A stretch of DNA of 64,000 nucleotides from Tribonema minus (taxonomy: Eukaryota; Sar; Xanthophyceae; Tribonematales; Tribonemataceae): assembly GCA_017506865.1 (NCBI GenBank), contig JAFCMP010000379.1, forward strand, positions 682,001 to 746,000, read 5' to 3'. Position 1 is the first letter of the stretch; every line of letters begins with the position of its first letter. Positions 5,961 to 63,917 of the stretch are shown piece by piece. Made by a program: the position numbers and the translations under genes. The notes beneath the pieces were generated by a model. That model was not told where the DNA came from and made no database searches. It saw only the letters and a program-made list of their open reading frames with translations.

Positions 5961-7841
5961 AACTAGCACTGAATGGCACCCTCCCAGTATGTATGCCGCA
6001 AAGGGTACCAAGGCTTTTGCCTGCATGCCACTGCAACGTCGTGGCAAAGCTGCTTATGGGAGCAGGTGCCATGGTCATGCATGCTTCATGGGGCTAGGTG
6101 ATACCAACAACGCTCTGGTGTCAACAGCATCATATGGTATGAGAGCAGCTGAGACGCAGACCAAGCTCGCAGCAGAACGTCATAGCACACTTCTGATACT
6201 GCCATGAAACCTGCATGGAGTGATTGCATTCCTCTGGGCGGTATATGCACCTGAAGCTACATAAAGTGGTACCAACAAGAATGTGTGCTGAGTTACTGCG
6301 TTGGCCATGCTTGCTGACATACACATCTGCAGTGTGCAGTGATGCAGCGCAGGGTGTGGTTACGCCTTCGATAACCCCAGGCGGTGGAGCACTCATTGCG
6401 GAACTCAGTGGAGTCGCACAGGCTTTCACACACACGAAATGGTTGCTTACCTGCAGCTCAACGTGACTGATGTTTGTGCTAGAAATATCTCAAGTCTCGG
6501 GGAAAGTTAGCTCCCGTGTTGTTTAATAACCAGCTTTATTTGTAAGATATTACTGCTTTCTTTGCAGACATTGTCACATGTAGCGCCTCCAGTGCTCCAT
6601 CAGCTGCTGTGCGTTGACAACGGTGTGCCTGGCTGCATGACCAGCTTCTCAACATGTTTGCAATACAACATTTCTTAACCCTGACGTCAACTTTTCAGGG
6701 CACAGTTTGTGAACATTCAAAATGTTCTTGTTGACTCTTGTAGCACCATGGTGTGCACTTTACTTGCACGCGTCCCTTAGTAGGACTTTCCCCCAGCCCG
6801 CAGGGGTATTATTTTGATGCACCTAGGTTGTGGTCCAGTACAGCGTGGACGGAGCTGCTGGTGATAGCGCACAGCGATGGCGCATTTTACCTCCGAGGGC
6901 AGATACTGGTGACAGCGCACAGCGATGGCGAGTTCTAACCCCCGGCGGCAGATTATGAGGCATCCCGCATTGCTGAAGGCATCGTCGACAGGTTGTTGGC
7001 GTGTAGTAGGGTTTGGGCGTGGGGGGAGGGGGAGGTGTGGGGGGTGGGGTGGGTGGGTGGGGGGGGGGAGGCTTTTTAGTCGCTGAGGTCTCACCCCTGC
7101 TGCAGTTATCTGATACTACTGTAATGGACACTGCCCGACATTAAAAAATACCCACCAGTCTGAGATGCTCTTTAACTTGAGCTCACTGAAGACGGCGACA
7201 CCTGTCACAGCACTGGAGCGTATGTTACGCAGAGGCGACGGATCCGAATCGTCTGGCATCACGGGGTTTTGACACATGTAAAGATCCGAATCGTCTGGCA
7301 CTACAGCATTTGACGCATGTGAAGAATACTGTAGTGAACACTGCACTGTATGTTGGGAGTTGCGCGCAGTTATGCCACCTTCATTGATGATCGCGTTGCA
7401 GGCAAAACAGAGCTGCGACGCTCACACTCGTCTGGTTGACGCTGATGTGCAGGTCCAATTCCACAGGCAGGGATGCATGCAAGAGTGCTCGTTGAAGGAG
7501 CACTCAGGCAGGACTTCTGTGGTTGGGTGTTCTCTGCCTCCGCTTACGCGCAAATCACCTGGGAGGCCGATGGCGGCACGGGGCGGGGCGGCTTCTGGCT
7601 GCAGGAATGGCTGGCGGGTTGAATGGGCGGCAAGTGTACAGCATCGCTGTCGGCCTGCAGGCTTTGGTGTATGTGTACAGCTTGCTGCATCCAAACCCCG
7701 CTGCAGTGCGACTGGCATGGTCAGGGCATGAGTATGTTGACCGCAGATGGGCTGGGGCGAGTATGACGGCTGCTCGCTGTGACTGTCCTTTGCCTTCAGA
7801 GGCTAGTCGCCTCGTTTTTTCAGTACCATTCGCTGGCCGGT
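5961..7841. repeat. Gene-free stretch with short tandem repeats and G-rich DNA
   Basis: No gene is supported. A tandem pair of about 49 bp lies at 6858-6955, each unit containing GCGCACAGCGATGGCG. A G-rich tract at 7015-7074 has many runs of three or more G and could form a quadruplex. A second pair of about 46 bp lies at 7239-7320, each unit carrying GATCCGAATCGTCTGGCA. The rest shows nothing I can name. Confidence 0.5.
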
Positions 7842-8912
7842 ATGATCAATCTGCACACCAATAAGCCCAAAAGCCACGATTCCAATGCCGTCCAACGTGC
7901 CAGCCTCATGGCCTGGTTGGTGGCACCTGCAGCCAGACTGTGGCAGCGGTGCATGCAGAGGTGCAAGTGCGGCAAAAATTTTGTAGTGGTTGATGAGAAG
8001 TGCACAACTCTGCATGCATTTGTTGAAGATGCAAGTTCGGCGCAATTGCCGAGCACTGACCCAGCGGAGACCATGTCCCCGCCGGAATTCCGCGAGACGC
8101 TGCGGCGCCACCTGGGCGTGGAGCGCCCCGCCCCCGCTGCGGCGCGGTGCCCCAAGTGCCATAGACCAGTGGACTCGGGTGCCCACCTGCGCCGCTGCAC
8201 ACAAGGGCTTAACGTCACGCGACACAACTTGCTCGCAGACGCGCTCTTTCAGATGCTCAAGCAGGTGGCCCACCTCCGCGGTCTCGACCGGGACACCCTT
8301 GCCCCCTTCCGCCGCTACGCGGCGCGCCACGGGTTCAACAAGTTCATGGACATCGTCTTTGGCAGCAACCAGGTCTGCCTTCCAGTCCCTAAAGTGCAGC
8401 CGAGCGCCGACGCGGTAGCAGCAGGCCGGTGCACTAAACTGCGCGGCGGCTTTGAAGTAGCTTGTTGCATAGACGTCACCATACGTGACAGCTCATGCCC
8501 CTCCCGCCTCCGTCAGGCTCAGGGGGGCGCGCGCGATGTGCAGCGCGTGCTTGAATCGGCTTCGCAGGAAAAGATAGACACATACGTAGTCTCAGGGGCC
8601 CTGGACCCCACTACACACACCCTATTTTCCGCAGCCTTTGACCACTTCGGCGCTATGTCACGCGACACCCAAGCGCTGCTACACGCACTCGCCGAGCAGA
8701 GCTCGCAGGGCAGCTACAATCTCGCGCAGCGCGTTGCCTTCTGGCGCCGCCGCACCTCCCTCGCGCTACAGCGCGCGCTCACACGTGTCGTGATCGACAA
8801 CTGGAACGCAGTCATTGCCCCTGATGGCGACGTCAGCGCTTACCGCCGCATCGCACTGTTGCAAGTGCCGCGGCCCTCGCCGGCCAGCGCCGAACCGCCG
8901 GCTCCTCCGTAG
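7842..8912 (+). mobile_element. C-terminal fragment of a non-LTR retrotransposon reverse-transcriptase polyprotein
   Basis: The open frame runs to a TAG at 8910-8912. From about 8070 it reads as the region downstream of the reverse transcriptase in L1-like elements. A CCHC-type knuckle (C-X2-C-X8-H-X3-C) near 8152-8202 is followed by TRHN, then a segment with the family-typical CIDVTI near 8467, and a long helical tail (FWRRRTSLALQRAL) near the end. The reverse transcriptase and endonuclease domains are missing, so this is a 5'-truncated copy. The first 200 bases of the frame (7926-8035) are not typical of the family. They match the dispersed repeat at 1-340, so the start is probably chimeric and the ATG at 7842 is only the first available one. 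It is probably non-functional. Confidence 0.7.
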
Positions 8913-9110: not shown

Positions 9111-10659
9111 CAAGGCATCGCGGAACCCAGACTCTCCTGCACACACACACACACGTGGCAGCTCAGCGGGCCGCTCACAGAAACCGCGCTTTCTCAGGGC
9201 TGCACAGCCGTCACAAAGGCCAGCGCGTGCTTGCACTCCAAGCACCGAATGCTGAGTGCCGTGTTGTCTTGCGGTCAGTGTGTCACTAACGTGACTGCCA
9301 CGTGCTTTCGCACCGGCTGACCACAAAGTCGTCTGTGACTCGGCGCCACTAACAGGGCGCGGCACCACCACCAGGGTGCCGTGGCTGCACCACCACCAGG
9401 GTGCAGCCATCCGAGCTCTCGTCGTCTGAGCTGATCTGCTCCTCTCCCCCTCCTTCATGAGGTTCAGTGCCCTCTGGTGCGTAAAGGAAGCGCCGCCATT
9501 GCGACCGGGAAAGAGTGATGCGTGGGCTGGATTAACACCCCCAAGATGTGGCTGCAGCCGCCCCAGGACCAAAAAGGTCGACGAATCAAGGGCCCCTGGA
9601 CCCAGGTAAACGCTGTCGCACACATCACGTGCTGATCACGAGCCGCGCTACAACTGGTCCTTTTTCATACCAGCACGCGACTCGCGGCGGACTGCTGACG
9701 AGCTCGCCCAAGCTCCCCTGTGTGCAGTGGTTAGCTACACGGTGGGTCAGACGTTAGCCGCACCGTGCGCAAACCGTGGCCGCCCCCGTAGCGCAGCAAG
9801 GTGCCCTTCGCCCTTAGCACTATTCATCCCAGGTGATCACGAGTCCGAAACTACAAACGTACGTGCGATGTAGAGGCAGCGGGAACGTGATGACGAATGG
9901 GCTGCACGTGATCCGTTCATCATATGACGAGGCGTCATCGTGCGTCATCGTGCTAAGGTATCGCTTGTGCAGGTCGTGCCTCAAATTTTGCCGAACCATG
10001 GATACCGGCGAAGCCGGCGGGGCGGTGTAGCACGCGTCCGCGCTACGGAGTAGATGGGGGGTGGGCTTTGCGGAGCGGATAGGGGCTAGGATCTACACGC
10101 TTGGTTGCCAAATCGTTGTGTATTGCCTACACATGCATGAGGTCTAGATCAAACAAGTAAGGGACACATGGTCAATGCAAGATGGTGTGAGCCATGTATT
10201 AACTTACCAGGGGCGTGGAGGAAGGAACCAGCAGCAGCCAGCACACAGACCAGTAGGATGAGAGATGCTCAGCCAGGGGGATGCTCACAGGGAGAGTCTC
10301 TCTGCAAGCCAGGTGATCTGACTTCAGCTCAGACCCCCCAGCGTGACCCCGTATCTTCAGGTCAACGTCACTGGTACTTCAAGACCTATTAGTAATCTGC
10401 ACCCTGGCCATAACACAAAGGCCATTCGCCTCGCCGGTGGCATCAGCAAGGTCCCGTGGCTCGTGGGCTCCTCCTTCGAGACGGATGGCTACTAGTAGGT
10501 AGTACCAGCTGAAGCTGCAACTCGTCACCAGCACCATCTGCAGCACCAGCAGTAGTTGCAGCACCAGCAGTAATTGCAACACCAACCTTCATGCTGACGC
10601 AGTTATGCCGCCCCAGCGTATTGTGAGATTTCCTACATGGTGTGAGACATGATACTAAC
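9111..10659. other. Gene-free stretch
   Basis: No supported gene. A short AC run lies at about 9137-9153. Near 10535-10575, CAGCACCAGCAGTA(G/A)TTGCA repeats twice. A long minus-strand open frame at 8919-9623 overlaps the retroelement tail, shows no family features and was rejected. Confidence 0.5.
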
Positions 10660-10811
10660 ATGTACTTTTTATTAATTCTCGCTCAGGGCGCGAAAAAGCC
10701 CAGATGATTGGCATCTAGCTGTAAGGAATCTACATGTCGTATGACAGTCTGAAAGTGTCGCAACGACAACCACTCAAACGCCGCCGCTGCCAAATGGCAT
10801 CTCGGGGTCCT
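10660..10811 (+). repeat. 152-bp direct repeat, left copy
   Basis: It matches 13591-13742 over its full 152 bp with a single mismatch (T at 10787, C at 13718), and identity stops abruptly at both ends. It has no obvious internal inverted repeat and no flanking target duplication that I can see. The two copies bracket the Fanzor relic. Confidence 0.9.
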
Positions 10812-12170
10812 AGCATGTACTTCGAAGTATATAATCGACCAGTATACTGCGTATAGCTACGTATGTTTTGATTTCATGTAAAGATTATCCAAATCTGAAG
10901 ACAACCTTTGATTTATGAGTCACGTACCCTAAATCCGGCGATTCTTTGGGCAGTTTCGCGCGCGCGCGCGCGCACTTTTGAACCAATTGCTATTGATTTG
11001 CGCCAAAGGAATCAACTCATCACAGCTGAGGGGTTAGCTATAGGTTTCTTAAAAAGAACTCATGTATGCACGCAGGGCTACAAAAGTATGCATCAGTTCG
11101 GCCCAAAGAGCTCACCACCTCGTGAACGCGTTAAAAACAGAAATCAAAAATCAGTTCTTCCTAAGCTAGCATCAAGATGGCGATGGCTTTAGGCCAAACC
11201 CGTGCATACTTTTATCAAGGGCAGCATCGGCTATCCATGAAGCCCATCAGCGCCGCAAACCATGGTGATACAGTAGAGTTGATAAGTTTTCAGCGTGCGC
11301 AACTTTTTTAGTGTTTCTGAAAACATGATCATGGCGCGCGCTGTAAGGCACGGCGGCGACGCGGGGCCAGGCAGTAGCTAGCATGAATGTATAATGCCTC
11401 AACTGTAGCGGTAGCAATGCAGCGCACGGCCTCTAGCAGGAGTGGTGTACATCAACGTTGCTATTCACACCGAGAGGTCCCAACGCGAAAAATGGTTTCT
11501 TAGCCGCTAGCGCCCACTCTAAGGTGGAGCGCTCGGTAGGCTAGCACGACTGTATCTAAGGCGACTGGACCACGTCTCGCTGTCATCCGCTTTGGAGTAC
11601 AACGCGCGTCAGCACATTTGCTCGCTGGCTAGGATTGCACTAAGCCTAACCGTCCGCGCTCAGCCTGAGAATCGCCGGAATTAGGGTACGGCACTCTTAT
11701 TTGTTGTTTCTTGGCGCACAACAGTGTCGATCTTCGAGAGTCCAGGACACCTGTCACATTCTATTATTTGTTGTTTCTTTGCGCACAACAGTGTCAATCT
11801 TCAAGAGTCCATAACACCTGTCACATTCTACTAGTGCAAGCATACCGTACCCGGCAATCAGCAGCGTTGCCAATTCAAGTTGCTCAACCTTGATGTGAAA
11901 CGAAACAACAAGCATTCATTTATGCACCCACGCATCCAGTGCATGCGCCATGAGCTTCAGCTTTCAACACCATGCCATATATATCTACATAGGGCCAGGG
12001 TCAAGATTGGGCAGTACTTTGAGGTCTGACTGACTGCCCCCTGTCCGGCGGCTGTGTTGTGTGATGTCACAGGTTGAGCACGAGGAGAAGGAGCTGGACG
12101 CTGTGCTGCAGAGAGGCAACGGACAGAGTACACAGGTGGGGGCTGACCCTGTGGGCTATGGGCCCGCTGA
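10812..12170. repeat. Interior left part of the direct-repeat element
   Basis: No gene is supported. It holds a CG dinucleotide run at 10957-10973, a TACTTCGAAGTA palindrome at 10818-10829, and a clean two-copy 67-bp tandem repeat at 11697-11763 and 11764-11830 that differs at only a few positions. An open stretch before 12168 may be a decayed upstream part of the Fanzor gene but has no motif to confirm it. Confidence 0.5.
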
Positions 12171-13328
12171 GTCCCGGTTGCGCCTGAAGGTGTCGCGGTG
12201 ACTGACGTCGACCCCGGGCAGGTGCTTGCAGTTGGTGGAGCTGTTGCCCTGGGCAAGCACTGGCGACGCGAAAATGCGGTAGACTTTGTGCTGGATCCTG
12301 CGATTCGGCGTGCGGAGGTGTTTGAGGTGTCCTGCGAGTTGCACCGCCAACGACGAGTACAGAGATGCGTGCAAGGCGCTGGCGGGGGAGCACACGCGCA
12401 CCTGTGACATTGAGGTGAGCTGGGGCAAGGAGTAGGCTAAGCCTAGACTGAGTGCAGTCCTCACTTGGGCACCTGCTCTGCTCCAGACGCAGAGTCTCCT
12501 GCTTGTGTAGCGTCAGACTGTCTGTCTGTATGTGGCCTGCCTGCACCAGATGTCAGCCTGCACCAACACGGCGTCTTCCGAGTCGGTATAGACTTTCTTG
12601 ACGGTCGAAGAGCGCATTGTGCTCAGCACTGACACTGTGCATCCCTTTTTGCTGCATTGCTCTGCCCTCGTGTAGGTCCTCACCGACTACTGCATCACCT
12701 TCGCTGAGCACGAGGACGGCATGTACGATGAGCTGCTGCACCCTGCGCGGAGTGGAGTGTTCAGACATTCATCCGTTTCAGCGCGCGGCAGAGGGCTGTC
12801 AGTCGCCAGGGTGGCGGAGGTGATCTCGCCGATGCGACGGCAGCGGATGCCGCCCGAATGGAGACCCATACGGCAGCGGAAACAGAAGCACCGCAAGTGG
12901 CGGACCAACCGCCGGGACCGCTGTGCGGGACGGCGCGTCGTGTTCCTTGGTGTCGCCGCACGGGTGGCGGCGCGCGGCCGTCCTCCCATCCCCACCAAGG
13001 CGGTGGTGTGGCAGCTGGCGTGCCGTACAGTCATCATCATGGTGCCGGAGGCTCTCACCACCATCTGCTGCGCGGGGTGTGGCCAGCGCACTCAGCCAGG
13101 CGGCGAGCAGCACGGCCACAGGAATCGTGTGTGCAATCCCCTCTGCCGCACGGCATCTGCCCCATTCAGGCAGCGGCGAACGGCGGGAATCAGGGGCTGG
13201 TGGTCTTCAACCGCGACCGCAGCGGCGGCACCAACATGGGCATGCGTGGCGTGTGCGCGGTCTGCGGCGTGGAGGACATCATCCCGGGGTACCCTTGGAT
13301 GGGGCCTGAGGGTAATGGGGACGAGTAG
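12171..13328 (+). pseudogene. Fanzor-like (eukaryotic TnpB-related) nuclease relic
   Basis: Fanzors are RNA-guided RuvC-fold DNA nucleases of eukaryotic transposons. Four conserved blocks occur in order. A RuvC-I-like DVDPGQ lies near 12201-12218. EYRDACKALAGEH at 12355-12393 leads to a GTGAGC donor at 12415, with the next open exon after TAG at 12676. VVFLG near 12937 is followed by a PIPTK segment, MVPE, TTICCAGCG (the usual TS..C..CG zinc-ribbon start) near 13039-13083, and a Cys pair near 13131-13146. RuvC-III reads FNRDRSGGTNMG near 13207-13242. At least two frameshifts break it: one between 12335 and 12355, and one in the CCCC run near 13137-13141. The 5' part is absent; an in-frame stop lies at 12168. 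The motif order is convincing but each piece is diverged. It is likely dead as a protein. It lies between the 152-bp direct repeats. Confidence 0.65.
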
Positions 13329-13590
13329 ACAGTGGGTGGCATGGCGGGGAGCGTGGGGGGGGGGGGGGGGGGGGCAGGGGGGCGGGGGTTGTGGGGGGTG
13401 GGTGAAGGGGGGGTGCCAGTGATGGCGGGGGCAGGGCAGTGCGGGGTAGTACCCGTAGGGTACTGCAGGCAGTTGCCAGTGCTGCCTGTTGGTGGTGGCA
13501 GCAGCACTTGTGACAGGGGCGCGTGCCTACAAGTAGCAACGAGGGGGGGGGGGGGGGGATGTTGCGGTAGCATGGTAGCTGGTGTAGCAA
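13329..13590. repeat. G-rich low-complexity tract
   Basis: A 20-base G run lies at 13355-13374, further G-rich sequence extends to about 13440, and a 16-base G run lies at 13543-13558. All are on the plus strand and sit directly downstream of the Fanzor relic. The tract has high G-quadruplex potential. No gene. Confidence 0.7.
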
Positions 13591-13742
13591 ATGTACTTTT
13601 TATTAATTCTCGCTCAGGGCGCGAAAAAGCCCAGATGATTGGCATCTAGCTGTAAGGAATCTACATGTCGTATGACAGTCTGAAAGTGTCGCAACGACAA
13701 CCACTCAAACGCCGCCGCCGCCAAATGGCATCTCGGGGTCCT
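13591..13742 (+). repeat. 152-bp direct repeat, right copy
   Basis: This is the right-hand partner of 10660-10811, in the same orientation, with one mismatch over 152 bp. Confidence 0.9.
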
Positions 13743-16700
13743 CCCCTACGTCCTCCTCCATGTGCCCCCCCCCCCTGGATTCTGCCATGTGTGTCATGAC
13801 ACGGCCAGAGTACGCCATGCGGAGCGCTGCCGACAGTGCCGAGCGTATGTACATGTAGTGGGGTGTGGTCTGGAATGTACCCTCGACGTTGCCAGCCCCC
13901 CACTGCTTATCTTCAAACATTGGTGACCAAGGGACCTCGGCTAACGCCAGGCATGTGTTCAAACAGGGGACCTTTGGGCAACCAGGGGCCACCCGCCCCC
14001 TGCCTTGGGAAGGAATCTAACTCCGCTGTCGGGCTTTTAACTCATCGCGACCCCGCTATAATGACAACTTTGCTACATAGAAGGTGGTGGGCCACACCAC
14101 ATTGCTGCGACGCCTCGCCAAAGACTCTGTAGGGTTGAAGCAGGTGCATGTGCTTGCACATTGCAAGTCGAGGGATGTTAGCCAACTGTTTGGCATGGCT
14201 ACATACTGCTGCTATGTTGCTGACAGTCATGATCGTGGAGGTTCCCTACACACATGATGCACTTGAAATCAACAAGCAAGAAAGAAGCAAAAGACAAACA
14301 CGCGCTTGCACCAGCTATTTTCATTGATCATGAGTTACCACAGCTGTTGATGAACACTTGCGGCCATCATGGATATCCCTGATGGTGTGACAAGTGGTGC
14401 AAAAGCAGTGCGCTGCATGCTTACATACTGTAGCTGGGACACACAAGAGTGCGCATTTTGCTGCTGCACACCTCAACAGGCCCCACAGGTTTGTACCGTA
14501 GGAACGATTACGGATGCTAGTTTGGAGGGTTGAAGTCGACCATGTACAGAATATGTTTGAAAGCGCAGAATTGCCGCTGCAAGCAAAATTGCTGCATTTT
14601 GCAGCACACGCGTTGAGTGCGTTGGTCCCCTCGACATGTCGGCGTATTGGAAGTTGTGCCCTGCTAGCAATGGCTGGCACTAAAGTGCAGCCCTGGCTGA
14701 ACAGAACACAACTACTACTGACACCCTACCATTACATGGGTCCAATGATGGTGGCAGGGTGGTACAGAATGATATGATCAAGATGGATGGGAAGTGAAGC
14801 CTGGTGCCACTGCCACACCGCGCACTACTGCTCTGTGTGCATGCGCGCTGAATGCTCCGGCGACCTCTGCATATGACGGTCTCCACACCGCGAGAGCATC
14901 AAGCTGCCAGGGCAATCAGTCTTGGGGGCAACCACCTCCATGCGCCCGGAGCTCAGCAGCACACATGGATCGTTGCTGCTGCAGCGAAGCAAAGAGAGTC
15001 AAATGAGACTCCTGTGAGCGTGACAACAACTTAAAGGCATATGATCGCAATGCCTTGTAGAAGTATCACTTGGCAGAACGCACAAACAGGGCGCACAAAC
15101 AGGGGATAAGCAGGAGTTTGTGCCAGTCCTGTGCTGAGCAACATGCAATGACTGCCAAAGCGAAGTAAGTTTGAGTTTCCCAGGCAAATAGCCAGCATGC
15201 GGTAATATTCAGCTACATTGTGGAGTGAGAGCCATATGGAGAGAATAGCATGATGTGGCATTCGTGTATTGATGACTGATATCGACGACAGGGCAGCGGA
15301 TGCTCACTAGCCATGAATACCATAGATCGGCGGCATGCTCACGTGCCACATCACTTCACTGAAAAATATATAGGTGCATAGAGGACTTGATGATATACAA
15401 TACACACTTCATAGAGTATTGTACAAATGCATAGAGAACTTGATAAAAGTGTGCAGCTGCCACCTCTGCATGAAATTAGATGCTAGAAGTCCCCCGGCAA
15501 GATTGAATTGGCTCAATGACATTGATTTCAATTGTATTTATGAACTGCTGTACCAGTGTGTCCTTTGTGATAATTTTGGATCACCAAAAACTGAATAATT
15601 GAGTGTCAAGTCAAGTAGCAGCTGCTGCTGCCTCTGCTGCTACATTCCACGATGATCATTGCAACACATTCACTCGCATGGCCATCAACATCTTCAGGTC
15701 AACATTCAACACCCCTGCAAGTATGCCGTCACACAGTGTATGTTGTGTACAACATCTATCAGCGCACATTCAGGCTGAAGGTGCCGCAGCAGCTGCAGAT
15801 GCCCTGCCTCTGCACGTGCCATGGCAGCAGAACCATTGCATCTATGATCTTTTGATTCGTTTTCATTGATTTAATATATGTGTTGCAGCTCTGCAAGAAG
15901 TGCACTGATGCGTTTGTGTGATTGCGCAGAGTTCTGACATAGATAAAGACTCACAGCCAAGAGTCCAAGCACCAATTCAATCCCTGAGCTGCAAACCTAG
16001 CTGGTACTGGTCGAGGATTTCATGGTGACCTGATGTTGCAACTAGCACCAAGGTCAGTGCATCGTCTGCCGTTTTGATGACCATGGGATTAACTTCATCC
16101 AGCCTCCGTGTCATTTCACAGGACTAGTGCAGAGGCGTCAAGCGTGTAAAGCACCACTCTGGAGCTGACGTCCCGGCAAGTGACATAGTCGATATTCAAT
16201 GCAATCAGCACTCCAAGTACTCCGATAACGATCAAAATACTTGATCATTGATCAAAGCTTCAACTCGATTATAATCATCGGATCAAACAGCTTCAGCTGA
16301 AAGCTGAAGCGAATACAGACATGTGCAGCCGGCTCAGGCACGCACCTGTTAGCCATGTAGTGACGTTGACCGTGCAGATATTCCAGTACCTTGGAATGAC
16401 CGCCAGCCGTTGCCTGTACCGCAAGGGATGCATTTGTTGAACACTGTTATCCCTTGACACAATGGTGACATAGCACCCCTCATAACGTTGGGAAGGGCAC
16501 GGTGATTACGAAGGCTGTGCATTGTAGCACATGCGCTGAATTGTAGCACATGCGCTGAGCAGGTTGAAAAAGGGGGGGGGGGGTTCATGCATTGAAAAGG
16601 ATACGAGCACACACACAATAATCAAATGCGTCAACATGATGCTTCTCATATCCCCCTCCCTCTTTCGTGTTGGTAGCCAACACACAAGGGCACTTGCCTC

Positions 16701-18353: not shown

Positions 18354-19570
18354 TCAATTGTGAGGATGTGAGCTACATACTGAGCACAGTCTGGGGAGTG
18401 GAGCACCCTGAAAACTGGGTCGACGGGATGTGCCCACCACCCTAGCCACTGACTCTACTTGCTTTTGTGGGGGTATGTTCTCACCTTGCTTATGCAGGAA
18501 CTCCACAATGCGCACGTGCCCGTTGGCAGCTGCAAACCGCATTGCCAGTTCAAGAGACTTTTGCCCGCCGTAGCCATGGTCCAGCAACCACTGCACCACT
18601 GTGAGATGGCCATGCTCAGCAGCTAGCTCCAAGGCATCTATTTCACCATGAGCCGCGCACTGCACCAGGTTGTTGTGATGCAACCACTGAATTATTTGCA
18701 AATGCCCATAGATGGCCGCAAAGTGGAAGGCATCCGAAGTGCAGCCCTCTTTTCGGTTGTTATGCAGCCATTGAAGGACTTCCAGGTGGTTGTTGGCGGC
18801 TGCCAGGTCCATAGCAGCAGTGCTGCAGCACACACAAACAGCATCACCAAGGGGAGGACATGACGACATTGGATGCTGGTCTTGTGCTGGTGATGCTGTC
18901 TGACTGCACATTATTTTGACACACGCACACATATGCTGGAAAAACGTGTGCGTGCAGCGGATTCTTACCTGCAGCCTTCCGTCCGGTTTTCATGCAACCA
19001 CTTGACCACCGCCAGGTGCCCATGTTCAGCAGCTGCGTCCATGGCACTCTTGGAGGCCCCTTCTTGCCTGAAGAAGCACGCAGCGGAAATAAGGCTGTCA
19101 GCAAGCTGGAGTCGATTTAGTTTGTGCTGCACAATGTTTTAAATTGCGTACCTGTGCTGCGCAAGCCACTCCACGACGTCCAGATGGCCCGATGCAGCGG
19201 CTTGTTTAAGGCCTTCCGGCGTCGGTGTCCTTCTGAGACATGCATCCAACGAGCGTTCGCTTATCAGTCTTAAACGGGCAATCAGCTGTGCAGCAGCAGC
19301 TGCTGCTTAAGGGGGATGCAACTTTACATACCTGTGCATGGCTTGTAGCAACGACAAGTGACCTAGAGCGGCAACTCCGTCAACAGTGAAATCGCCTGCG
19401 GCCGCGCCATCCTGTGAACTCAGCAGCAGCTGCCAAATATGGCTGTTCCCCAAAATCCGCTCCACCCTGGCGCGACGCCTGTCACAGCAGGACCTCTGTG
19501 ATGCACGCACTCGCACTCTGTGGCGCCTCCCGGTCTGCGTGATTTGAATGCAACCACCCCTACTCGTCAT
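18354..19570 (-). CDS. Ankyrin-repeat protein
   Basis: Four exons in consistent phase: 19332-19570, 19152-19232, 18969-19067, 18354-18822 (295 aa if the last exon runs to its TGA). Helix-turn-helix ankyrin units are clear from the second exon on. Examples are ASGHLDVVEWLAQH, AEHGHLAVVKWLHENRTEGC, ANNHLEVLQWLHNNRKEGC, YGHLQIIQWLHHN, EHGHLTVVQWLLDHGYG and NGHVRIVEFLHKQG. This EGC-ended repeat style is known from large ankyrin families of protists and giant viruses. It probably acts as a protein-binding scaffold; the partner is unknown. The start ATG at 19570 is the first one giving a phase-correct exon. A strong donor (CAAG followed by GTGAGA, at 18486/18485) lies inside the last exon right after the final repeat. 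The transcript may therefore splice on, and the C-terminal 40 residues may not be real. Confidence 0.75.
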
Positions 19571-59500: not shown

Positions 59501-61033
59501 AGTGCACTGAGTTCACATGCCTGACAACTGAAAACACAGGTGTTGGTGTTCCTTCCACACAAGACTTGTGCAGCGGTCGGCATTGCATGGTGATTTTTGA
59601 TGCAAGCGCATCCAATGTGCATTACTGTCGCTCTGTCTGACTGAACACAACTGAGGTGCCACACCCAGTTGATGCAATGAGCATCATAGAGTACTTGCAA
59701 TTGTACCCATTCAGATTGTGTCCCATTTGCACAGGCTTACACCCTGATTGCATTAGCATAGACAGATGGAACTGCTGACGTTGCAGTGCATAGCCTTCAA
59801 TTACCTAAATACCTCAGAGTGAATCAGTGGCAGGCCCATAAGCAGGGGAGGATTCTTCCGCACGCAGCCACTATCACAAAAGCACTCACTTGCATCTACC
59901 TGCTTGCCTGCAACGGACAAATCTGCGGGTGACTGCTGGTGAAATATGCAACGGCTTGGTGTGGTACTCTCGTATAATGTCATGACTACACACACCAGCG
60001 GGCTGCCACCTTTGCAAGCAAGTCCAACTGGATCACTTGATACATATGCTTTCTTGGTCAAAGCACCAGCATGGCTACATGAAGGTGAACTGCTAGTGAG
60101 ATGGATTGGCTGTATGACTTTCTACTTGATGCAACTTCAATCTCAGTCAAGTGTAGTAATTTATGCAGACCAAGTGTCTGGACATTGAGCATGATCAACC
60201 AAGTCTGTTGTAGATGTGTGTTCGTGATGTAGGTTTCTTGCCTTTTCGTCGCCATCTTCCTCCTCTCCCTCCACGTCCTGTGTCATTCTGCCCACATTTG
60301 TGTCCTCCTCATCGTCATCATCATCCTGATCGAAGGTGCCTGCATCAGACAAATGCATGGTCGGTGCTGTGAAAACGAATATCTGACCAGTTGTGATGCA
60401 ATCATGTGGGCAGCTTCGGGGTCAAATCGCATCAATCACAAGGTCAGAGAGCACTTTGTTTGCGGCGACACTTTACACTAAAAACATATATATCAAAATG
60501 TCAACACAGCGTATCATGGCTGAAAGCAACGTTCTGCAACAGTTCGTCTTTTAAGTATGGCCCTTCTGCTGGGATGCTTGAACAAGCTTCTAGTTCGAGC
60601 AGAGCACAAACACCAACGTGAGTCAACGCTGAGTTTCACACACCTGGTTTGGCTCGTGCCAGGGCCGTTGAAGCTGCCTCCTCGCCATCATCATCGTCGG
60701 CACGGGCATCTGGAAAACGTGCAATCATCGAGAGCGAGTATTCAGAGCAGTGAGAACAACTCGTACAGTAAAGCAGAGGCAATGTCAGCGTTAGGAAAGG
60801 TGGCACCATGCGTAGCTGAACAGCTCGAGACGAACAAGACAGGCAATTTTGCAAGCGTATGGTCTTACTGCAGACTTGCAAGACCAGCTGGCGTTGATTG
60901 AACCCAATGTCTTACCATAGCTAGGCTCGCCTTTGGTTTCTTCAAAGCCCTCGTCTTGACCTTCCGCAAAGCGCACACGGCGCTTATTACCTGCACCGCC
61001 ACCTTCACTCTCCTCCTGCCGGCGCTTCACCAT
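53618..61033 (-). CDS. CD2BP2: CD2BP2/LIN1-like GYF-domain protein (U5 snRNP 52K)
   Basis: Eleven exons close in phase to 453 aa: 60916-61033, 60644-60709, 60242-60339, 59214-59332, 58795-58855, 58101-58382, 57416-57551, 56285-56380, 54815-54876, 54196-54333, 53618-53803. The N-terminus is basic (MVKRRQ, NKRRVRF), then acidic. Exon 4 gives VLEPFNLKNERQEGYFDTNG and an EITDAW-like end (QETDAW), the family hallmark before WL. Exon 7 has RLTDLADHL and VYYSTKEAL. The GYF domain (VQFEYLGK, then GPFSMVQMYSWVSSGYF) spans about residues 339-392, and the protein ends with WVTSDAVDFSKYI, as in the family. The protein binds proline-rich partners and helps assemble the U5 snRNP. Exon 3 ends at AAG|GCAAG, a GC-AG intron. 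Exon 8 is an Ala/Gln-rich linker and is the least certain. The rest is solid. Confidence 0.9.
56466..56502. repeat. AC dinucleotide microsatellite
   Basis: About 18 uninterrupted AC units lie in the intron between exons 7 and 8 of the CD2BP2-like gene. Confidence 0.95.
59301..59560. repeat. 130-bp tandem duplication covering the edge of CD2BP2 exon 4
   Basis: Units 59301-59430 and 59431-59560 are almost identical. Each contains the 5' edge of exon 4 with its TTTGCAG acceptor. The 59431 copy stops after the first 30 or so exon bases, then runs into duplicated intron, leaving a pseudo-exon fragment upstream of the true exon. Confidence 0.9.
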
Positions 61034-61124
61034 TGTCACCCCGCCCTGCAAGCTGGACGACTCGACTTCCAGGCACTTCAACGCCGTGTTTGAAGTTTGT
61101 CGAAATCGGTGCGTAGCAAAGAAA
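61034..61124. promoter_or_regulatory. Bidirectional promoter between CD2BP2 and ARP6 genes
   Basis: Only 91 bp separate the start codons of the divergent CD2BP2-like (minus) and ARP6 (plus) genes. A GC-box-like CCCCGCCC lies at 61039-61046. Both 5' untranslated regions and a shared core promoter must fit here or overlap the coding starts. No TATA box is seen. Confidence 0.55.
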
Positions 61125-63917
61125 ATGGCGACGGTGGTGATAGACAATGGCGCTGGCAGCGTACGGGGTGGCTGGGCAGGGGAGCCGAATCCGCGACACA
61201 CCATGCCGAACTGCACAGCCAAAATCAAGAATCAGACGGTGGTGCTGGCAGGCGATGAGACCGTGGATGCGGTTAGGGATAAGTCCCAGCTGGTGTACCA
61301 GAGGCCGCATGACAGGGGCTATCTGATCAACTGGGAGAATGAGCTGGAGGTGTGGAAGCGCATGTTCGATGCTAGTCATCTGAATGTGCAAAATCCCCAG
61401 GACCATGCGCTGCTGTTCACGGAGCCTCCGTTCGCCCCCATCATGCTTGCAGAAACAGCAAATGAGGTCAGTTGAGGCACAGTATCGTATTGTTGTATGT
61501 TCTCACTTTTATACTTGAGGTTGAAATTCTTAATCCCATCAAACGGTCAGAAATCAGGGTTGAACAACTCAGATGACAGCAACCTCAAGTTGATGCCTCT
61601 CTGTGATAGTCAGAGAGTACGCATTGCCCAAAAGCGAATGCTTGCTGTGTTTGCGATCCGCGGTATATGCGAACTTATTTATGCTTGTGCCTGTGTATGC
61701 ATGTATACTTTGCTGACACCCAGCACACGCACAAACTCCCCCATGATATTGTTGGGAACACCGGAACAGCTGGCACTTTGCACCATGTTCAGCTGGTATC
61801 AGCAATTACTCAAGCTCCATGAGTTGCATAGGCGCTACACCCACACATTTCAGCTCTGCAGTTGGCTGGCTGCTCTCTTGCAGTAATTGTTACAGTCGCT
61901 GATGTTTGTAAGCTCCATATGTCATGAGGATGCATGGCTTGCCATGCACACAAGGTATCATTAGATCAAGTATTCTTTGCATGTACGATGATGCAATGAC
62001 AAAACTGGGTGAATGCAGTGGCGCTGGGGGCACTTGGCTCTGGCACTCTGACTTGAATTCAAGCATGTTGCTGGTGCAATGGATTATGGGCTCAACAACT
62101 GACCTACCTGCCTGTCGGCACTCAACCGCTTTTGCATGATTGAAAGCGTGCGTATGCCTCTCCTGATGCTTTTTTCGCCCCTTGTGATGGTTGTGTAAAG
62201 GTGGTGTTTGAGGAGCTAGGGTTCACGGCATGCTACAGATGTCCACCTGCTGCCCTCAGTGTGTACCTAGAGCAGGTGGGTGGTACAAGAGCAAGCCAGT
62301 GTCACTATACTAGCTACTTCACGGCACAACATTGAATGTTAAACTCGTCTCAAAGGCCACTTTCACAGACTTTACCATTGGCTGTTTGCCTGTGAAGCGG
62401 ATCACAGCATGCGCAGGGCGTGCTTTGTCAGAAAACACTGTGAGCGCTCCTGAGGGAGGTGAGACATGAAGGCAATAAAGGCATGGATCAGACACACAAT
62501 GCTTTGCAGACCAGTAGCAGCCTGACAGTGGTGTGACCACTTGATACTTGACAAAACACTCATGAGATATGCGTATGCACAACAGAGCTTTGCTGGAGTT
62601 GCAAAAATTCTTGTTAAGGCATGCCATGCACGAGTGCTGGCTGTACCTATTGTGTCGAAGTGGTATGCATACCAGTTCAGCACAACGCTATGCTCATCTT
62701 GAGCCTTTGAGTGCGAGGCATGCGAGAGGAGTTCAGCAGCGCTGGCATAAAATTGGAGACAAACCAGGGGCCAGCAAGGGGGCGCAAAAGGAGGGGAAAG
62801 TGATTGCACACGAAGGCATGTAACTTTGGTGAAAAACACATGACCATAGGTCCTCTGGGCACGGCAACACCAGTAACAATACAACACCTAGGCAGCTCTG
62901 CAGCGAGTTTGCTCAAATCAGTTAACAACAGTGGACCTGAATTTGAACTGATGGTGATAATATAATGTAATGATGCTGGTCTCACCTGTGCAGATGATGG
63001 AGGAAGAGCGAGATGCTGCTGTGGCTGCTGCAGTGGGAGTGTCGCCACTGTCATTACCCGCGCAACGGGCATCCCCCGTCTTGGAGGTTGTTCAGGATCT
63101 GCCCGCACCTTCCGCTGCTAACGCAGCCGCTGCAGCTGCTGCCGCCGCGGCAGCCAACAGCGCTGAGGTTTACAGCAATGCTCTGCCACCCGCTGATGCC
63201 ATGGTGGTGGTGGACATGGGTTTTTCGTTTACACATGTGTTCTGCTTCTACAAGGGACGGGCGCTGCAGCATGCAGTGAGTGCTTACTTGCGTGCATACA
63301 TTTACTTCCGAACTACTAGTATTTCAGGGCATTTGTGACATGCACTTCTTGTCCACTATGGAATGACGTGCACACTGGTGTGGGAAGCAGCTGCTTAGAG
63401 CTAGAATAAATTCATGCCATCTATCGTACATCGCAAAGCTCGCAAATTTGCCAGGGTTGAACGCTGTTGCAGTACCTGAAAGTACCTTGATACAGGTCTA
63501 GACTATGCCAAACCGATTAGGGCAGTGGCAGATGTCACAATTACATTGTGACTTCAATGTCCCAGTAGCTCTGGCGTAGTATAGGTCGCCCTTTGATTGG
63601 CGCTTGTCATGAGTGCAGACCATGCATTTAGACTGGCTAGTTGAAATGTGTATACATATGTGTGTGGCCTGCCTTAGTTCAAACTGTCAGTGCCTACATC
63701 TGCACCACTATAGCAATTGCACAATTTGATTGTGCGAGTAATACCAGTAAGACCAGGATGCACACATACCTCATACACACATGCGTCCCCCCCTTTTCTG
63801 CTGTGTGTGCAGACAGTCCGTTTGAATGTGGGTGGCAAGCTGCTGACCAACTACCTCAAGGAAGTGTTGTCATACAGACAGCTCAATGTCATGGACGAGT
63901 TTGATCTGGTCACACAG
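61125..63917 (+). CDS. ARP6: Actin-related protein 6, partial (continues past the right edge)
   Basis: Four exons in phase (61125-61466, 62201-62275, 62994-63275, 63813-63917) give 268 residues; the gene runs on from a GTAGGT donor at 63918. ARP6 is a subunit of the SWR1-type remodeller that exchanges H2A for H2A.Z. The start MATVVIDNGAGSVRGGWAGE is the first actin nucleotide-binding loop. YLINWENELEVWKRMF, LLFTEPPFAP and VVFEELGF follow. VVVDMGFSFTHV is the second phosphate loop, and LNVGGKLLTNYLKEVLSYRQ is diagnostic for ARP6 among actin-related proteins. Between VYLEQ and the VVVDMG motif there is an insertion of about 70 residues with an 11-residue Ala run (about residues 181-191), longer than in other ARP6 proteins I recall. 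The C-terminal half is outside the window. Confidence 0.93.

Follow-up and report, generated by a model that had tools for sequence, protein, structure and literature searches.

A dead, 5'-truncated transposable-element copy in Tribonema minus that very probably carried a multi-exon Fanzor1 gene

Fanzor1 proteins are eukaryotic relatives of the bacterial RNA-guided TnpB nucleases, and the locus described here raises the question of whether a short, broken coding stretch in the alga Tribonema minus is what is left of a gene for such a protein and, if so, what kind of element brought it there. The locus lies in the window, by which we mean the whole 64,000-nt stretch of DNA that was analysed, corresponding to C379:682001-746000 of the 158-Mb T. 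minus assembly (554 contigs; contigs are denoted below by C numbers and loci by L numbers). Our reading, to which we assign a probability of roughly 0.93, is that the locus represents a copy, now dead and truncated at its 5' end, of a transposable element in which a multi-exon Fanzor1 gene resided. Fanzor genes in the transposons of algae have been on record since 2013 (PMC3627910), and reports of Fanzor cutting under RNA guidance date from 2023 (PMC10432273); one dead copy therefore adds little, and the value of the observations lies in the genome setting. Within a single genome, Fanzor families range from dead transposon copies with introns to long open frames without them, and both the proposed spread of Fanzors by viruses and the one-ended mode of insertion reported for algal Fanzor elements could be tested in one organism.

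Extent, parts and decay of the window copy

A first-pass annotation of the window had confined the feature to positions 12171-13328. Alignment with other copies from the genome showed these limits to be too narrow, since homology runs from about 10416 to 14064 and the gene part begins at 12073. The parts that we recognize are as follows.

~10416-14064, + strand: 5'-truncated, Fanzor1-bearing transposable-element copy, delimited by alignment with other copies (start 10416-10418, end 14064)
10454-10492, + strand: remnant of an upstream exon, PWLVGSSFETDGY, from translation and comparison with L034-L036, L045 and L046
10648-10833, no strand assigned: later insertion containing a high-copy unit of 152 nt (10660-10811), missing from other copies that reach this point
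10917-11696, no strand assigned: later insertion of ~780 nt with terminal inverted repeats of ~32 nt and TTAT on both sides, missing in L009, L011, L013 and L022
12073-12414, + strand: exon A, the RuvC-I region with GVDPG, from the alignment of copies
12415-12675, + strand: intron, GTGAGC...TAG (GT-AG), its sites compared among the aligned copies
12676-13328, + strand: exon B, with MVPE, the CxxC zinc pair and NRD; stop codon TAG at 13326-13328
13329-14064, + strand: 3' non-coding part ending CCCCGCTATAATGA, its sequence conserved in 14 ends
13597-13841, no strand assigned: later insertion with a second 152-nt unit (13591-13742, 99%); other copies join the equivalents of 13596 and 13842

The bases before about 10419 match a different repeat and mark the left edge of the copy. 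The upstream-exon remnant is followed by in-frame stops, and at 10481-10489, upstream of the segment originally annotated, it contains the TDG motif that is characteristic of the Fanzor1 WED domain (PMC10711439). The start of exon A at 12073 is a prediction taken from CACAG/GTT. At its other end, exon A finishes with GAG at 12414, GTGAGCTG comes next, and AG precedes exon B at 12676. The intron at 12415-12675, which had been proposed as plausible, is borne out by the other copies: the 5' splice site GTGAGCTG was present in all 8 of the other aligned copies whose sequence includes this junction on its exon A side (L016, L017 and L018 do not extend into exon A), and the 3' splice AG was kept in 6 of these 8, the exceptions being L013 and L019.

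Relative to L011, exon A of the window copy has suffered deletions of 14, 4, 10 and 53 nt, and relative to L016 and L017, exon B shows changes of +5, +4 and -1 nt. None of these 7 indels across the 2 exons is a multiple of three, and the motif-bearing parts of the copy lie in different reading frames. Moreover, the L011 copy extends at least 2.8 kb farther upstream than the window copy and matches amino acids 211-306 and 545-613 of a 951-aa relative, the match to 545-613 coming from the L011 stretch that corresponds to the upstream-exon remnant of the window; the window copy is thus without its 5' exons. With 7 frame-breaking indels and missing 5' exons, the copy cannot make a protein and does nothing as a protein gene. 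Two frameshifts had earlier suggested that the gene is dead; that count was too low.

The later insertions have features of their own. The segment at 10917-11696, with an inverted repeat (10914-10945/11668-11699) that is 88% complementary, resembles a small cut-and-paste transposon. The 152-nt unit is 99% identical at its 2 sites, each of them within a later insertion, and the first of these insertions has CATGTACTT on either side. Of 623 genome candidates for the unit, 40 were scored and matched at 99-100% over all or almost all of its length, and 3 further matches among those listed were partial or at 94%; we take the unit to be a young, very high-copy short element. We considered the two 152-nt direct repeats flanking the gene as possible terminal repeats of the element and rejected them, because both lie within insertions that other copies do not have and the unit occurs genome-wide. 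A 67-nt tandem duplication (91% identical) is also found inside the element, at 11694-11827. Scans of the window with Rfam (gathering cut-offs) and for tRNAs gave no matches.

Relationship to Fanzor1

Pfam searches with the window's own frames returned nothing relevant, the sole match being a weak and unrelated one to MotA_ExbB (E 0.23). The open exon B of L016, used in place of the broken window copy, matched PF07282 at E 0.31 and 11.7 bits, below the 26.3-bit cut-off, and matched no NCBIfam model. When the same exon was used to search the genome, 155 matches were obtained, including a sister family (L046, L047) at ~50% identity; another search of the genome for Fanzor frames gave 88 matches, which overlap with these. 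Three relatives, L034, L035 and L036, pass the cut-off of PF07282, the TnpB/Cas12f zinc ribbon, with 30.0, 29.0 and 28.6 bits, respectively (L034 and L035 rescanned as proteins gave 28.4 and 27.3 bits), and carry DEFRTS-CC-x-C and DRDVNAS. A profile of the window family and its sisters (6 sequences) was compared with a profile of L034-L036 and matched it at E 1.1e-11 over 171 columns with 26% identity, this E value being that of one profile pair. When six sequences were aligned jointly, RD, the relocated glutamate and 4 cysteines fell in invariant columns. The link of the window family to Fanzor therefore runs through intermediates, the relatives L034-L036, which pass the cut-off and align with the family over the same motifs. 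The suggestion that the locus is of Fanzor type is supported by this route, whereas the profile search that had been recommended as its test had a mixed outcome when applied directly, being negative with the window frames and below the PF07282 cut-off with exon B of L016.

The order and spacing of motifs argue in the same direction. All the blocks listed in the first-pass annotation were found, and in the order given there: DPG (D codon 12210-12212, followed by CCC GGG), PIPTK between DPG and MVPE, MVPE (E codon 13048-13050), TTICCAGCG (CxxC cysteine codons at 13069 and 13078) and NRDRSGGTNMG (D codon 13215-13217). The Fanzor long motif has been given as D-X(125,275)-[TS][TS]-X-X-C4 zinc finger-X(5,50)-RD (PMC3627910), DPG together with a relocated glutamate has been called the molecular fingerprint of Fanzors, and the RuvC-II glutamate has been placed some six residues before the zinc finger (PMC10711439). 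The window family satisfies the long motif: the distance from the RuvC-I D to the TT pair is ~190-209 residues in the copies that carry both, and L016 has cysteines at 129, 132, 150 and 159 followed by R177. Six residues lie between the glutamate encoded at 13048 and the first zinc cysteine at 13069, and this codon is GAG in 11 of the 12 aligned copies (GAC in L018), so that the earlier interpretation of the E in MVPE as the relocated RuvC-II glutamate stands. The RuvC-I codon is GAC in 5 of the 8 other copies with exon A (L009, L010, L012, L014 and L019); the site is N in L011 and L013, and L015 begins there. Two observations count against the assignment, namely that the RuvC-I motif is DSG in L034 and L036 (DPG in L035 and L045), and that the relocated glutamate is Q in the sister copy L047.

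Structural comparisons added little. Searches of PDB sequences with single proteins and with profiles gave no solved Fanzor at a significant level, the sole relevant match being 'TnpB-like protein L79' (E 0.2, with the L034-L036 profile), and an AlphaFold model of the relative L045, built from six sequences, reached a pLDDT of 34.9, too poor for comparison with the RuvC fold or with the paired kinked helices of the Fanzor1 REC2 domain.

At the level of sequence comparison, we regard the assignment of window positions 12073-13328 as part of a decayed Fanzor1 gene in a 5'-truncated element as supported. The family agrees with the Fanzor1 of eukaryotic transposons in the long motif, DPG, relocated glutamate, TDG and introns (PMC3627910, PMC10711439, PMC10432273) and in its residence in a eukaryotic mobile element. 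It differs in being more diverged, such that the Pfam cut-off is reached via intermediates only, in the wide spacing of its second zinc pair, and in that the copy is dead. With bacterial TnpB and Fanzor2 it shares RuvC and the zinc ribbon; unlike these, it has the relocated glutamate and TDG that are ascribed to Fanzor1, and the TnpB model NF040570 matches L030 (104.6 bits, cut-off 100) and not the window family. L030 (C179:452738), L031 (C112:1444131) and L029 (C144:101386) are TnpB/Fanzor2-like, and all 3 pass PF07282. The available sections of PMC3627910, PMC10711439 and PMC10432273 contain no description of the window's Fanzor family.

Copies of the element, their ends and mode of insertion

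In a genome search with a 1231-nt query from the window, 40 of 54 candidates were scored and at least 45 matches obtained; at least 9 of those listed, the window included, cover over 1100 nt of the query with identities of 76-100%, and matches of this number and length exclude chance as an explanation. Of 20 stretches of 9.9 kb, we aligned 11 with the window; the remaining 9 contain copies that are shorter or rearranged. Across exon B and on into the 3' non-coding part, identities among the 12 aligned copies are 80.5-96.3%, and those between the window and the 11 others 82.3-93.8%. Exon B is open to its expected end in 3 of the 12, L015 (211 aa), L016 (214 aa) and L017 (214 aa), and in L013 to within a few residues of it; in the remaining 8 it is broken or shifted. 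None of the 3 is a whole gene, because L016 and L017 are without exon A and L015 begins at the RuvC-I site. Thus, of the expectation that intact relatives would exist elsewhere in this genome, the part that stood is that better-preserved relatives do; an intact full-length gene of the window family was not found among the copies examined.

The copies retain traces of a coding past. Departures from the majority letter amount to 4-5% in exon B versus 9-12% in the intron, and when the 11 copies other than the window are compared pair by pair, gaps whose length is a multiple of three make up 141 of 271 in exon B versus 77 of 275 in the intron. By these sequence signatures, the element family is one that once carried a coding gene. 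Exon B shows no more than a slight bias of changes to third codon positions (0.051, 0.043, 0.054), and exon A a somewhat clearer one (0.071, 0.076, 0.099); given this weakness, much of the divergence among the copies seems to postdate the loss of function.

The copies share one 3' terminus, CCCCGCTATAATGA, at which homology stops at or within a few bases of 14064, and the sequence beyond it differs at each locus; the ends of L013 and L017 stop earlier. A genome search with the 3' end, in which 40 of 53 candidates were scored, gave at least 40 matches, and 35 of these extend to the last 8 nt of the query. The distal 5' region of L011, by comparison, gave 13 matches, of which 7 exceed 130 nt. 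The 3' ends are thus in excess over 5' ends, and 5' truncation is frequent in the family.

We tested 13 of the 3' ends for target duplications and found clear ones at 2. In L016, a 14-bp duplication lies one base before the start of homology, and in the L028 copy a 14-bp duplication is separated from the element by ~800 nt of other sequence. In random trials, 33 of 1600 reached at least 10 bp and none of 1600 reached 13 bp, in a search that was narrower (1.5 kb, 8 offsets) than the real one (4.2 kb, 11 offsets). Candidate duplications of 10 bp at L025 and L015 were within chance and were not counted; the best candidate for the window itself was 7 bp, at chance level, and the remaining 10 of the 13 ends, including the window's, gave no duplication above chance. 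The duplications in L016 and L028, and the weaker one in L025 (10 bp), begin with TGA, which are also the terminal bases of the element, and the exact boundary of the element is ambiguous because the two share these bases. The bases preceding the 2 clear duplications are CTTG and TGAG.

One-ended transposition of Helitron2-type elements has been proposed for CRe-1, CRe-2 and CRe-3 of Chlamydomonas reinhardtii (PMC3627910). Compared by description, the window family resembles these in carrying a Fanzor1 of several exons, in having more 3' than 5' ends and in the 5' truncation of its copies; its 14-bp duplications compare with the ~7-19 bp of truncated CRe copies, and in both, extra sequence sometimes follows the 5' duplication (PMC3627910). 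In contrast, CRe elements insert after TTTT or a T-rich tetranucleotide (PMC3627910), whereas the 2 clear duplications here are not preceded by TTTT or other T-rich bases, and clear duplications were found at only 2 of 13 ends. A 5' end common to a large Helitron family, as in CRe, was not found with the distal 5' query from L011. Helitron-type proteins do occur in the genome (15 matches to PF14214, 14 of them above the cut-off). From these comparisons, the element would appear to behave in part like the one-ended CRe elements.

In Fanzor1 elements the 3' non-coding part, here 13329-14064, would be the expected place of a candidate guide RNA, and a search for a conserved non-coding RNA next to the copies had been recommended. 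The last ~220 nt are conserved in sequence among 14 ends, with a mean column identity of 83%. None of the 52 pairs in the predicted consensus fold is changed on both sides, the covariation term is unfavourable (+2.47), and the last 150 nt of 6 copies fold no better than shuffled sequences (z -1.60 to +1.59), so that neither covariation in the 14 ends nor folding of the 6 copies supported a structured guide RNA at the 3' end of the element. Since the 3' ends lend it no structural support, we propose a guide RNA solely from membership in the Fanzor1 family. As we picture it, the element's transcript would have been spliced and translated into Fanzor1, the guide RNA probably came from the element's non-coding 3' end, and the protein would have cut matching DNA with its RuvC D-E-D site, helping the element to persist. 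A transposition enzyme, possibly acting in trans, would have moved the element, inserting it with its 3' end intact and frequently without its 5' part.

Giant-virus setting and alternative explanations

Among the Fanzor matches listed from the search with L016 exon B, 17 lie in open frames of at least 780 aa. Twelve of these lie on C21, C90, C112 and C179, all of which have matches to giant-virus capsid proteins (the capsid profile PF04451 has 10 matches in the genome), and the other 5 lie on C59, C279, C379, C401 and C514, which have none; L034, L035 and L036 are among the Fanzors on the capsid-bearing contigs. The contigs are long, and the closest Fanzor-capsid pair is ~10 kb apart (on C112), the others being separated by tens of kb or more, for which reason we treat the co-occurrence as a lead and not as proof of viral origin. 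Perhaps the capsid-bearing contigs represent integrated giant-virus DNA carrying Fanzors. Viral contigs scanned with profiles of L034-L036 yielded no relative, a result for which the short search patterns may account. Because intron-bearing transposon Fanzor1s and intronless Fanzor1s near capsid genes coexist in one genome, a virus may have delivered the ancestor of the window family, introns having been gained once it was captured, and the copies may insert one-endedly by pairing of the terminal TGA with the first bases of the target; we regard this scenario as speculative and rather unlikely.

Different explanations can be offered for how the copy arose and for what it encodes. The gene assignment could be right and the mode of insertion wrong, if a LINE-type reverse transcriptase working in trans, and not a DNA transposase or a rolling circle, had produced the copies by way of RNA. 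Target-primed reverse transcription would likewise leave copies that have the same 3' end, are often truncated on the 5' side and are flanked by 14-bp target duplications, and the TGA with which the element ends and the duplications begin would be compatible with priming by pairing of a few bases. However, the intron is kept in all 8 of the other copies that reach its 5' site, and the 3' ends at 15 loci have no poly(A) or simple-repeat tail, so we consider this mode of insertion improbable. Much less likely is a fragment of a giant-virus Fanzor left behind by an integrated virus: such a source is indeed suggested by the 10 capsid matches in the genome and by the many long intronless Fanzor frames on 4 capsid-bearing contigs, yet the window family is intron-bearing and its copies, dispersed across many contigs, have a common 3' end, differing flanks and target duplications, and the window's own contig, C379, has no capsid match.

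Least credible of all, and in our estimate scarcely worth entertaining, is a pseudogene of an unrelated zinc-finger protein that resembles Fanzor by chance. The lack of direct profile matches for the window frames would fit such an origin, but the alignment and the profile comparison tie the family, with all motifs in order, to relatives that pass the TnpB/Cas12f zinc-ribbon cut-off. We therefore return to a dead copy of a Fanzor1-bearing transposable element as our reading of the locus.

Several further observations concern the surroundings of the copy. The window's own contig contains the 951-aa open frame of the Fanzor1 relative mentioned above (L048, L045; C379:867755-870610), and a second copy of this frame, 97% identical and with one TAG, lies 75 kb away at C379:944777-945922. 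Within the window, a 381-aa open frame at 7767-8912 has no Pfam match and includes a zinc-knuckle-like stretch, which we take to recall the C-terminus of LINE reverse transcriptases. The window also contains an ankyrin-repeat frame at 18354-18989 (PF12796, E 3e-23) and an actin-family frame at 60960-61475 (PF00022, E 7e-20).
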